Of a stretch of 64,000 nt of DNA, positions 29,865 to 33,890 are shown piece after piece. Source of the DNA: Nonomuraea sp. SBT364 (GTDB lineage: Bacteria > Actinomycetota > Actinomycetes > Streptosporangiales > Streptosporangiaceae); assembly GCF_001083785.1 (NCBI RefSeq), contig NZ_LAVL01000008.1:1-64000 (forward strand), written 5' to 3'. Made by a program: the position numbers and the translations under genes. Below the pieces are notes generated by a model. That model was given only the letters and a program-made list of their open reading frames with translations. It was not told the origin of the DNA and ran no database searches. Every line of letters begins with the position of its first letter. Position 1 is the stretch's first letter.

Positions 29865-30341
29865 ATGGACAAGAAGCTGCTGCTGAGGACGGCTCTCGGG
29901 GTCACCGCCGCCGCCGTCGCCGGAACGCTCGGCACCGACGCCCGCTCCGCGTGGTACCGGCGGCTCCGCAAACCGCCGTGGCAGCCGCCGCCCCAGGCGT
30001 TCCCGCTGGTCTGGACCCCGCTGTACGCGCTCATCACCTACGCGGGCGCGCGGGCGCTGAGCCGGGGGGACCAGGACGAGCGCCAGGGTCTTCAGCGTGC
30101 CCTGACCGTCAATCTGCTGCTCAACGCCGCCTGGCCGGCGCTGTTCTTCCGGAGTCGGGCGCCGCGCCTGGCGCTGGCCGAGATCGTCGCGCTCAACGCG
30201 TCCAACGCGATGCTCGTCAGGCGGGCCTGGGCGGCCGACCAGCGGGCCGGGCTGCTGCTCCTGCCGTACGCGGGATGGACGGCGTTCGCCACCGCGCTGA
30301 ACGCCGCCATCACCCGCCGCAACCACGGCTCCCGGCGCTGA
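29865..30341 (+). CDS. tspO: TspO/MBR family membrane protein
   Basis: Encodes 158 aa. All family signatures are visible: W30-Y-x2-L-x-KPPWQPP (30-42), FPLVWTPLY near 46-54, NLLLNAAW (83-90) and LLPYAGWTAFATALN (132-146), within five membrane helices. TspO binds porphyrins and other tetrapyrroles and takes part in tetrapyrrole homeostasis and light or stress responses. It lies 13 nt before a SpoIIE phosphatase gene, which itself overlaps a B12-binding photoreceptor-like gene. A tetrapyrrole or light role for the whole operon is therefore plausible. Confidence 0.9.
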   Translation: MDKKLLLRTALGVTAAAVAGTLGTDARSAWYRRLRKPPWQPPPQAFPLVWTPLYALITYAGARALSRGDQDERQGLQRALTVNLLLNAAWPALFFRSRAPRLALAEIVALNASNAMLVRRAWAADQRAGLLLLPYAGWTAFATALNAAITRRNHGSRR

Positions 30342-30354
30342 CCTGGGGCGGGCC

Positions 30355-31923
30355 ATGAACCGGATGGTGTGGGAGGACGCACCGTACCCCATGTGGGCGC
30401 TCGGCACGGCAGGCGTCGTCCAGCAGGCGAACCGGGCGGCCCGGTCGCTGCTCCCCGGCGCGGTCCCGGGCGCCCACCTGCCGGAAGTGGCCCCCGCGTG
30501 GCTGGCGCGGGCGCGCCCGGCGTGCGGGCGGGAGGCGCCCTCCGGGCCGATCGGCGACCGGGTGTACCAGGCGCACGCCGTCCACGCCGACGGCGACCGC
30601 GTCATCTGGTGGCTGGTCGACGTCACCGGCTGCCGGCAGGACGCCGACGCCCTCCGGGCCGAACGGGAGTGGGTCACGTTCCTGGCCGACGCCTCCGACC
30701 AACTCCTGTCGTCCCTGAACCTCGACCGGTGCATGGAGGTGACCGCGCGCCTGGCCGTGCGGTGCCTGGCCGACGCCGCGCTGGTCGTGATGCCGGTGCC
30801 CGGTCACAGGTACGTGGCCGCGTACTGCGGCCCGGAAGGCGAGGCGGCGTGCGGGACCGAGACCGTCGACCCGCGTACGGTGCCGGAGCTCGCCGAGGTG
30901 CTGCGGGGCTTCCCGCCGTCGCCGGTCCGCTGGATCGACCCGGCCTCGGTCCCGGAGTGGATGATCCGCGAAGGAACCGGCGAGGTGGGGTCCGTGGCGC
31001 TGGTCGGCCTGCCCGGGCACGGCCTGCCCGCGGGGGCGCTGGTGCTGTTGCGCCGTTCCCGGCGGGCCGGGCTGACGGACCGGGAGCGGGTGTTCGTGCG
31101 GCTGTTCGCGGTGTGGGCGGGTGCGGCGATCTCGGCCGCCCGCATCTACACCGAGCAGGCGGTCATCACCGAGACCTTGATGGCCGAGCTGCTTCCGCCC
31201 GCGCCCCCGCGCCTGGACGGCGTGGAGCTGGCGGCGCTCTACCGGCCCGCCGGTCCCGGCGAGCAGGTCGGCGGGGACTTCTACGACGTCTACCCCGTCG
31301 CCGGCTCGGGACGCGAGTCGTTGGTGGTGCTCGGCGACGTGTCGGGCAAGGGGCTGGAGGCCGCGGTCCTCACCGGGAGGATCCGCAACACCCTCCGGGC
31401 CCTGCTGCCGCTGGCCGACGATCACCAGCGCGTGCTGGAGTCGCTGAACGGCGTGCTCGTCGCCGACAGTGACGCAACCCGCTTCGTGACCCTGGTGCTG
31501 GCCTCGTTCGAGCGCCGCGGCGCCCGGGTGGCGCTGCGGGTCACCGCCGCCGGGCACCCGTCCCCGATGGTCGTGCGCAACGACGGCCGGGTCGAGGACG
31601 TCGGGGCCGACGGGACGCTGATCGGGATGCTGGAGGACGTCACCAGTGTCACCGGTGCCGTCATGCTCGATCCGGGCGAGACCTGCCTGCTCTACAGCGA
31701 CGGCATCATCGAGGCCAGGGGCGGCCCGCTCGGTGACGAGTTCTTCGGCGAGGACCGGCTGCGGGAGCAGCTCCGGCAGTGTGCCGGCATGCCTCCGGAG
31801 GCGCTGACGGAGCGCGTCCAGATGCTCGCCTCCGAGTGGGTCGGCGACGGCGAGCACGACGACATGGCGGTCGTCGCCATCACCGCCGGCCCGGCGCAGG
31901 GGGAGGACGGGTGCCATGAGTGA
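30355..31923 (+). CDS. PAS-GAF-SpoIIE (PPM-type) serine phosphatase
   Basis: Encodes 522 aa. Residues about 1-100 look PAS-like (PYPMWALGTAGVVQQANRAA, then WWLVDVTGCRQDADALRAE). A GAF-like sensor covers about 105-265, and the SpoIIE phosphatase core about 290-515 with metal-binding aspartates in GEQVGGDFYDV, LGDVSGKGLEAA, LYSDGIIEAR and EHDDMAVV. Such enzymes usually dephosphorylate STAS anti-sigma-factor antagonists and thereby release a sigma factor. No kinase or STAS partner is adjacent. It overlaps the cobalamin-binding gene by 8 nt, so that protein is the most likely input or partner. Confidence 0.9.
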   Translation: MNRMVWEDAPYPMWALGTAGVVQQANRAARSLLPGAVPGAHLPEVAPAWLARARPACGREAPSGPIGDRVYQAHAVHADGDRVIWWLVDVTGCRQDADALRAEREWVTFLADASDQLLSSLNLDRCMEVTARLAVRCLADAALVVMPVPGHRYVAAYCGPEGEAACGTETVDPRTVPELAEVLRGFPPSPVRWIDPASVPEWMIREGTGEVGSVALVGLPGHGLPAGALVLLRRSRRAGLTDRERVFVRLFAVWAGAAISAARIYTEQAVITETLMAELLPPAPPRLDGVELAALYRPAGPGEQVGGDFYDVYPVAGSGRESLVVLGDVSGKGLEAAVLTGRIRNTLRALLPLADDHQRVLESLNGVLVADSDATRFVTLVLASFERRGARVALRVTAAGHPSPMVVRNDGRVEDVGADGTLIGMLEDVTSVTGAVMLDPGETCLLYSDGIIEARGGPLGDEFFGEDRLREQLRQCAGMPPEALTERVQMLASEWVGDGEHDDMAVVAITAGPAQGEDGCHE

Positions 31924-32941
31924 GGCCATCGAGGAGTACGTGGAAAGGCTGTGGACGGCGGCGACCGGCGGCGACGAGTACGCCGCGGCCGAAGCGGCGC
32001 TGGCCGCGCTCGACGACGGCGTCCCCATGGAGACCCTGCTGCTGGACGTCGTCGCCGCCGTGCAGTCCCGCGTGGGCCGCGAATGGGCGGCCGACCGCCT
32101 CTCGGTCGCCCAGGAGCACACCGCGACCGCCATCAACGAGCGGGTGGTCGCCGCCCTGGTCCACCATCCGTCGCAGCGGGAGCGGCCGGCGCCGGGCAGG
32201 GGACAGGTCGAGGTGGCGTGCATCGACGGCGAGTGGCACGCGTTCCCCGCGCGGCTGCTGGCCGAGGTGCTGCGGGTGCGTGGCTGGCGCGTCGACTACC
32301 TGGGCGCGCAGGTGCCCGCGCCGTACCTGGTCGCGCACCTGCACCGGAACAACCCGGACGTGGTGGCGCTGTCCAGTTCGCTGGCGATCCGGCTGCCCGC
32401 CGCGCACTCGACGATCACCGCGTGCCAGGCGGCGGGCCTGCCGGTGCTGGCCGGTGGCGCCGCCTTCGGCCCGGACGGCCGCTACGCCCGGCTGCTGGGG
32501 GCCGACGCCTGGGCGCCCGACGCCCGCTCAGCCGCCGATCTCCTGGCCGCCGGGCCGCTGCCGCGTCGGCCGGCGCAGGACGAGGCGAACCTGGGCGGCC
32601 ACGAGTACGCCCACGTGACCCAGGCCGCGCCGAACCTGGTGAGAGCCGTCCTGGACCGCTTGCAGGCCCGTCCGGAGCAGCGGCTCGGGCCCACCGCGGA
32701 GAACGTCGCCCACATCGTCGACTATCTCCGGGCCGCCCTGTACGTGCACGATCCCGAGCTCTTCTCGTCCTTCGTCTCCTGGATGGCGGACGTGTCCACG
32801 GCGCGCGGATTCCCGGCGGGTGTCCTGCTCTCCGCTCTGGAGGCGCTGGCCGACGGTCTCGGCGGCCTTCCACACGCCCTCGCCATGGTGGCCCGGGCGC
32901 GCTCCGAGCTGAACCGCCCGGAAACCGGCAGCGCCGCCTAA
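31916..32941 (+). CDS. Cobalamin-binding photoreceptor-like protein without DNA-binding domain
   Basis: Encodes 341 aa from ATG 31916, overlapping the phosphatase stop. The helical capping domain (about 1-85) has W57-x9-E67-H68, the motif that shields adenosylcobalamin in CarH/LitR photoreceptors. A Rossmann-like B12 domain (about 96-215) follows with E106-W-H108 (H108 as likely lower cobalt ligand; canonical DxHxxG is degenerate), ALSSSLAI and LAGGAAF. Instead of the N-terminal MerR helix-turn-helix of CarH there is a C-terminal extension (about 220-341) of helices. It could transmit light or B12 status to the upstream phosphatase. Confidence 0.85.
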   Translation: MSEAIEEYVERLWTAATGGDEYAAAEAALAALDDGVPMETLLLDVVAAVQSRVGREWAADRLSVAQEHTATAINERVVAALVHHPSQRERPAPGRGQVEVACIDGEWHAFPARLLAEVLRVRGWRVDYLGAQVPAPYLVAHLHRNNPDVVALSSSLAIRLPAAHSTITACQAAGLPVLAGGAAFGPDGRYARLLGADAWAPDARSAADLLAAGPLPRRPAQDEANLGGHEYAHVTQAAPNLVRAVLDRLQARPEQRLGPTAENVAHIVDYLRAALYVHDPELFSSFVSWMADVSTARGFPAGVLLSALEALADGLGGLPHALAMVARARSELNRPETGSAA

Positions 32942-33124
32942 CGCGCTCTTTCTCGACAATTGCGGACTGTGTATATCGAATACCTGCATCTGCTCCTTTC
33001 TTGATGGGTTGCGTTTCATCGGCAATACCGGTGATCGACGCTCGGGTACCGCCTTTCGCCAGAACATTGTGTTCGCGGCGACGTGCCCGCAGGGTGGCCG
33101 GGAGCGTGGGAGCGGGAGGCGTGA
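32942..33124. other. Relatively A/T-rich intergenic stretch
   Basis: This 183-nt stretch is lower in GC than its flanks (for example GTGTATATCGAATACC near 32970). It contains no gene I can support. It may hold the old promoter of the LysR-type pseudogene that follows. No terminator hairpin was recognised after the B12-protein gene. Confidence 0.3.
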
Positions 33125-33890
33125 ATGGAACTGAGGCATGTTCGCTCTTTCGTGGCGGTAGCCGAGGAAGCGGGTTCACCCGGGCGGGCATCCGGCTCAC
33201 GCCCGCCGGCGAGGTGTTCGACGACCGCGTCAAGGCCGTGCTGAGCGCGGTCGAGGAGGCCGCCAGGGCGGCGAGGGCGCACTCCGGGTCGGCATCTCGC
33301 TGCCGCTCCCCGACGAGCTGCACTTCGCCGTGCTCAGCGCCTTCACCTCGGCCTATCCGAAGGCGCGGACGAGCTGGCGGCAGGTGTTCATGCCCGTCGG
33401 CTCCGAGCGGCTGACCCTCGAACCGCTCAGGGCGGTGCCCAGGGCGCTCGCCGTGCCGATCGGCCATCCGTTCCGGGACGCCGCGAGCGTGCGTTGCACC
33501 GACGTGCTCGACCAGCCGCTCGTGCCGGTGGCTCCCGCCGTCCCCGGCAGGGGCGCCCGCTGGGTGGCACCCCCGACGAGCTGCTGATGGCCGTACGGCT
33601 GAACCGGGCCACCGACGGCTGCGCCGACGATCAGGTGCCCGAGGGGCAGCGCGACGGGCTCCGCGGCCTCGCCGACGCCTGCGGCTCGCCCGAGCCTCGG
33701 TTCGTGAGCTCCGCGGACGAGCTCGACGTGGTGCTTCGCGAGCCGGTGATCCCCGATGACGGCCCGGCCGACCCCGTGGACGTGCCCGCCGAGCGGAAGC
33801 CCCAGCCCAAGGAGCACGAGTTCATGGCCGCCCTGCTCACCGGCGGGTCCGCCTCGTCGCCAAGGTCCGGGGGCCGCCGCTCCCGGACTG
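33125..33890 (+). pseudogene. Decayed LysR-family regulator and adjoining remnant
   Basis: ATG 33125 begins MELRHVRSFVAVAEEAGS, a LysR N-terminus behind a GGGAGG-like ribosome site, but most of the helix-turn-helix is missing. The frame then changes to IRLTPAGEVFDDRVKAVLSAVEEA (from about 33190) and again to GISLPLPDELHFAVLSAFTSAYPK (from about 33295), which is the effector-binding domain, ending near 33587. A further coding-like stretch (33580-33845, ending HEFMAALLTGG) is in yet another frame and may belong to the same or another lost gene. Not functional. Confidence 0.7.

Follow-up and report, generated by a model that had tools for sequence, protein, structure and literature searches.

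A phosphatase-photocobilin gene pair conserved in actinobacteria as a candidate light input to STAS partner switching

The stand-alone photocobilin SasPcob from Saccharothrix syringae has been crystallised (PDB 8J2W and 8J2X) and its photoglobin domain binds biliverdin beside the corrin ring (PMC10979010). In the dark, photocobilin bound to adenosylcobalamin (AdoCbl) is dimeric; on illumination the Co-C bond is broken and, in the case of SasPcob, a monomer results (PMC10979010). Light-state photocobilins altered a cyclase in trans, with evidence for a protein contact, and for a stand-alone photocobilin the change of an enzyme in trans was accompanied by a light-dependent change in oligomer state; the effect of SasPcob on the test enzyme reversed its sign with biliverdin occupancy (PMC10979010). 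In AbDPcob, a photocobilin-diguanylate cyclase fusion (sensor PDB 8J2Y), the sensor controls the enzyme to which it is fused. The authors of that study described the function of stand-alone photocobilins as "less clear" and, from an interaction-network and neighbourhood analysis, named STAS, SpoIIE and PP2C-like proteins as potential partners of SasPcob in Saccharothrix (PMC10979010). The idea of a phosphatase/STAS partner is already published as a prediction. In the literature searched, outside which one relevant photoglobin paper lies, we found no experimental paper on a phosphatase-photocobilin pairing. To the published prediction we add a strict pairing with a single phosphatase family, the joint presence or absence of the two genes, the place of the STAS gene and the exclusion of TspO.

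We analysed a window of 64,000 nucleotides from Nonomuraea sp. SBT364 (contig NZ_LAVL01000008.1), in which three genes, all on the forward strand, encode a TspO protein, a PAS-GAF-SpoIIE phosphatase and a B12 protein. As claimed in a preliminary description of this DNA, the genes are tightly packed: the ORF coordinates give a gap of 13 nt between TspO and the phosphatase and an overlap of 8 nt between the phosphatase and the B12 protein. The features of the locus are the following.

29865..30341, forward strand: TspO/MBR membrane protein, 158 aa, a neighbour specific to this strain and not a conserved part (Pfam PF03073, E 3.4e-40)
30355..31923, forward strand: PAS-GAF-SpoIIE/RsbU-type PPM phosphatase, 522 aa (Pfam PF07228, E 1.4e-40)
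31916..32941, forward strand: stand-alone photocobilin, 341 aa (phmmer match to SasPcob 8j2x/8j2w, E 3e-77, residues 10-320)
32084..32119, forward strand: adenosyl-capping motif WAADRLSVAQEH, codons W57 to H68 (W/E/H conservation in aligned photocobilins)
32228..32239, forward strand: codons G105-E-W-H108, His108 being the predicted lower axial cobalt ligand (alignment to SasPcob His108)
32666..32704, forward strand: codons 251-263, a shortened bilin-pocket loop in which Asn263 replaces SasPcob Asp270 (alignment; dip in AF2 confidence)

Just 3' of the B12 protein, positions 33123-33600 of the window look like a LysR-type regulator gene that has been shortened and has decayed (MELRHVRSFVAVAEEA..., with a jump).

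Only B12 domains were called by Pfam in the third protein (B12-binding, E 7e-17; B12-binding_2, E 3e-12). Its top match among solved structures is SasPcob, and AbPcob also matches (E 5e-39), both being far ahead of CarH. An AF2 model was built on the window sequence and 40 relatives (pLDDT 91.9); when it was searched with Foldseek, 8j2w and 8j2x came first over the whole chain, with a TM of 0.87-0.90 and 47% identity. The domain plan comprises a four-helix cap and a Rossmann B12 domain (about residues 1-215), followed by a globin-like domain (about 229-333) packed on the B12 domain, which is indicated both by the 8j2w homology through residue 320 and by the whole-chain match of the model. We therefore assign the C-terminal third of the protein to a photoglobin domain, which the preliminary description had overlooked. 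Judged by its sequence, the protein is a full-length homologue of crystallised SasPcob, with the same length, domains and fold.

The third protein had been described as a CarH-like B12 photosensor lacking a DNA-binding domain. The latter statement holds, since no N-terminal domain precedes the helical cap in Pfam or in the AF2 model, and the B12 domain and the W-x9-EH cap are indeed common to this protein and to CarH from Thermus thermophilus. However, the MerR DNA-binding domain of CarH has no counterpart in the window protein, and CarH in turn lacks the photoglobin domain found here; membership of the CarH family is thus ruled out, and what we have is a photocobilin, which combines B12 and photoglobin domains, instead of a CarH module that has lost its DNA-binding part. 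The window protein shares its sensor core with AbDPcob (33% identity), whose enzyme is a fused cyclase; at our locus, the enzyme is a phosphatase and a protein of its own, joined to the sensor by translational coupling. Related B12 domains also occur in the corrinoid proteins of methyltransferases and in methionine synthase, which raises the idea of a corrinoid carrier for methyl transfer, outside signalling. We rejected this explanation as extremely improbable: the best hits of the protein, which run along its entire chain and take in the globin domain, are photocobilins, the neighbours examined contain no methyltransferase gene, and the W and EH residues are conserved.

The W57-x9-E67-H68 motif noted earlier is present, as is E106-W107-H108 (E/DxH motif), and the published light signature GxxW, GxxH, GxxxP (PMC11796333) is found as G54/W57, G105/H108 and G130/P134. 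In the alignment, Trp61, Glu71, His72, His108 and Trp296 of SasPcob are retained as W57, E67, H68, H108 and W289. Among 153 aligned photocobilins, the W, E and H of the cap are kept in 152, 153 and 152 sequences, respectively, and the lower-ligand histidine (His108) in 151. With such a pocket, AdoCbl sensing by the protein is very likely. Another explanation is that it senses cobalamin availability, AdoCbl binding and not photolysis setting the activity of the phosphatase. Binding and photolysis are inseparable by sequence, and AdoCbl binding alone lowered the activity of the fused photocobilin-cyclase (PMC10979010); however, the adenosyl-capping and cross-dimer residues, through which photolysis becomes informative, hardly vary across the 153 sequences, and both photocobilins tested in that study respond to light. 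We consider cobalamin sensing of this kind unlikely.

The bilin pocket is less well kept. Two biliverdin contacts of SasPcob are altered, Asp270 being replaced by Asn263 and His137 by Tyr137, while the third, Trp296, is conserved (W289). In addition, the pocket loop near residue 251 lacks about 7 residues relative to SasPcob, and the confidence of the AF2 model drops to 74 at residues 251-260. Of the 153 aligned photocobilins, 130 retain Asp270, compared with 151-153 for the B12 residues. AbPcob, which is also without the aspartate, binds biliverdin weakly (PMC10979010). Biliverdin sensing by the photocobilin of Nonomuraea sp. SBT364 thus looks doubtful from the alignment; the altered contact residues and the short pocket loop suggest that it may work mainly as a B12 sensor for green light. 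A heme oxygenase, a source of biliverdin, is encoded elsewhere in the genome. We also observed that four photocobilin-bearing genomes (G009, G016, G031 and G040) have no Pfam heme oxygenase match.

The second gene had been described as encoding a PAS-GAF-SpoIIE phosphatase. Its SpoIIE part was found by Pfam (PF07228), with the catalytic motifs GGDFYD (306-311), GDVSGKG (327-333), DG (449-450) and DD (502-503), and the metal-binding residues D308, D328, D449, D502 and D503 are invariant among 38 relatives. Among solved structures, the AF2 model (pLDDT 88.5) comes nearest in fold to the RsbU domain of Rv1364c, followed closely by RssB, SiaA and SpoIIE, every one a PPM phosphatase; the PPM fold with its metal-binding aspartates is therefore present. 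PAS and GAF domains were not called by Pfam in the window sequence, but Pfam calls GAF in 17 of the 38 relatives and, in the model, two alpha/beta domains precede the phosphatase domain, with fold matches that include phytochrome PAS-GAF cores. The enzyme shares its phosphatase fold and catalytic motifs with the RsbU/SpoIIE phosphatases and with the RsbU-RsbW protein Rv1364c (PDB 3KE6). Unlike Rv1364c, it has no fused anti-sigma kinase, and its likely input is the separate photocobilin beside the PAS-GAF region. Upstream of the phosphatase genes, we did not find any enrichment of SigB/SigF-type or HrdB-type promoters that might have pointed to the sigma factor involved.

We then compared the gene neighbourhoods of photocobilins. 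The 80 closest photocobilin loci in GTDB genomes, hereafter the near set, come from Nonomuraea, Streptomyces, Actinomadura, Amycolatopsis, Mycobacterium, Saccharothrix, Pseudonocardia and others. The phosphatase gene is directly upstream of the photocobilin gene in all 80, with an overlap of exactly 4 nt in about half of them. Since these loci were chosen by similarity, a class-wide spread of 297 genomes was added. A photocobilin is present in 66 of these genomes and the phosphatase lies directly upstream in 44 of the 55 class loci examined; the 11 loci without it mostly carry more distant photocobilins. Within the genus, 29 of 55 Nonomuraea species hold both a photocobilin and the phosphatase orthologue, each phosphatase being placed beside a photocobilin by its coordinates, and the other 26 species have neither. 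The window genome (9.98 Mb) contains 26 SpoIIE-domain matches among an estimated nine thousand or so genes, which puts chance adjacency well under 1%. The phosphatase and the photocobilin are a conserved two-gene unit in many actinobacteria.

Some loci depart from the simple pair. Tandem photocobilin genes, possibly forming a heterodimer, lie between the phosphatase and STAS in L198 and L200 (G168 and G042). A second, more divergent photocobilin without an adjacent phosphatase is present in some genomes of the genus (L048, L049 and L051; G002, G004 and G024). In L019 and L051 (G022 and G024), the photocobilin matches come in two segments, which may reflect inserts or frame disruptions.

Just upstream of the phosphatase gene, about 21 loci, mostly from Streptomyces, carry a conserved hairpin element of ~45 nt (L084:6278-6336, L134:6269-6327, L137:6242-6300 and about 18 more; alignment A6). 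Its 9-bp stem is unbroken in 21 of 21 sequences and one pair shows a compensatory A-U/G-C change; in the eight loci compared with Rfam, no family reached threshold. The element was found in 2 of 10 genomes searched, once in each, at the photocobilin operon, and it was not found in the window genome. In several Streptomyces loci, a MarR-type palindrome, TTGCC-N4-GGCAA, lies 5' of the hairpin (L134:6241-6275 and similar), and a MarR-like gene often follows STAS (cluster 4, e.g. L134:9522-10025), suggesting that the photocobilin operon encodes its own regulator.

A small STAS gene lies directly downstream of the photocobilin in 55 of 80 near loci and in 22 of 55 class loci, often with a 4-nt overlap. 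All 36 aligned downstream copies match Pfam STAS and STAS_2, and the phosphorylatable serine of the DSxGL motif is kept in 35 of them. Of the 80 near loci, 32 have RsbW-like ATPase genes no more than 4 kb away. With a STAS protein carrying a phosphorylatable serine encoded directly downstream, the full operon of the relatives reads as phosphatase, sensor and probable substrate; from this linkage, a STAS antagonist is the likely substrate of the phosphatase. In contrast, we found no STAS or anti-sigma kinase gene among the neighbours examined beside the window pair, and an adjacent STAS gene is missing from most Nonomuraea species, including Nonomuraea sp. SBT364, where its absence distinguishes the locus from that of SasPcob. 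Partner switching through STAS, as initially proposed, is thus sustained by the next gene in most close relatives and not by an adjacent gene in the window. STAS domains match at 25 places across the window genome, and a search of it with the profile of the relatives' STAS gave 14 matches (best E 1e-20), with no clear single counterpart.

The STAS gene often follows the photocobilin gene directly and overlaps it slightly, which could also mean that the photocobilin targets STAS or a stressosome-like assembly and not the phosphatase, the phosphatase and photocobilin genes being linked only through a common STAS; moreover, photoglobins are remotely related to the RsbR globin (PMC10151467). However, the link to the phosphatase (80/80) is stronger than the link to STAS (55/80) and, in Nonomuraea, the phosphatase-photocobilin pair usually persists without STAS, and we hold a direct action on STAS to be quite unlikely.

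TspO had been proposed to be part of a light or tetrapyrrole input. Pfam TspO_MBR (PF03073) covers residues 15-149 of the first protein as a full-length domain, and this is the sole TspO match of the window genome. One could imagine that the operon senses tetrapyrrole status, TspO handling or degrading porphyrin or biliverdin and feeding or reporting to the photocobilin, with the phosphatase as relay. The position of this single TspO gene, immediately upstream on the same strand, and the presence of a heme oxygenase elsewhere in the genome are in line with such a role. But none of the 55 class loci has TspO near the photocobilin, and only 1 of 80 near loci has it within 4 kb, about 3 kb off and on the opposite strand. 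In the genus, TspO is found in 22 species and photocobilin in 29, and the two are linked in 1 of 55, Nonomuraea sp. SBT364 only; the closest TspO relatives (77% identical) belong to two species without photocobilin. In four relatives, the surroundings of TspO showed nothing consistent with the window flanks, neither shared ancestral flanks nor a common TspO context. The replacement of the SasPcob bilin contacts, described above, also argues against tetrapyrrole sensing, which we find highly improbable. Both genus-wide and class-wide synteny rule out TspO as a component of the module: of the proposed TspO-phosphatase-B12 synteny, the phosphatase-B12 part is not limited to this strain, while TspO joins it only in Nonomuraea sp. 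SBT364, which sets this locus apart from that of SasPcob. TspO may be co-transcribed with the pair in this strain, but as a neighbour it falls outside the conserved system.

Taking the phosphatase and the photocobilin as the unit, we propose that they probably form a two-protein light switch acting on STAS partner switching. In the dark, the photocobilin dimer would keep AdoCbl under W57, E67 and H68, with His108 as lower ligand. Light would break the Co-C bond and loosen the dimer, green light acting through B12 absorption and red light possibly through bound biliverdin; for the window protein, we infer this cofactor binding and photochemistry from its likeness to SasPcob. The altered photocobilin would then touch the translationally coupled phosphatase directly, most likely via the PAS-GAF region and the linker helix, and this contact would make the phosphatase faster or slower in dephosphorylating a STAS anti-sigma antagonist, which in Nonomuraea sp. 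SBT364 must be encoded elsewhere in the genome. Once dephosphorylated, the antagonist would capture an RsbW-type anti-sigma kinase and a sigma factor would be freed. Since the sign of the SasPcob effect depends on biliverdin occupancy, the direction of control is not predictable. On a wider scale, it seems to us possible rather than probable that phosphatase, photocobilin and STAS constitute a widespread, dedicated actinobacterial pathway from light to sigma factors, with partner switching in trans, of which Nonomuraea sp. SBT364 would be a variant without biliverdin sensing and without a linked STAS, and with TspO at the head of the operon.

The strict pairing with the phosphatase and the neighbouring STAS in most close relatives name a likely physiological partner and substrate for stand-alone photocobilins. 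A light-to-stress-response pathway in non-photosynthetic soil bacteria thereby becomes directly testable, and the pair, with or without STAS, may offer a compact two- or three-gene optogenetic module.
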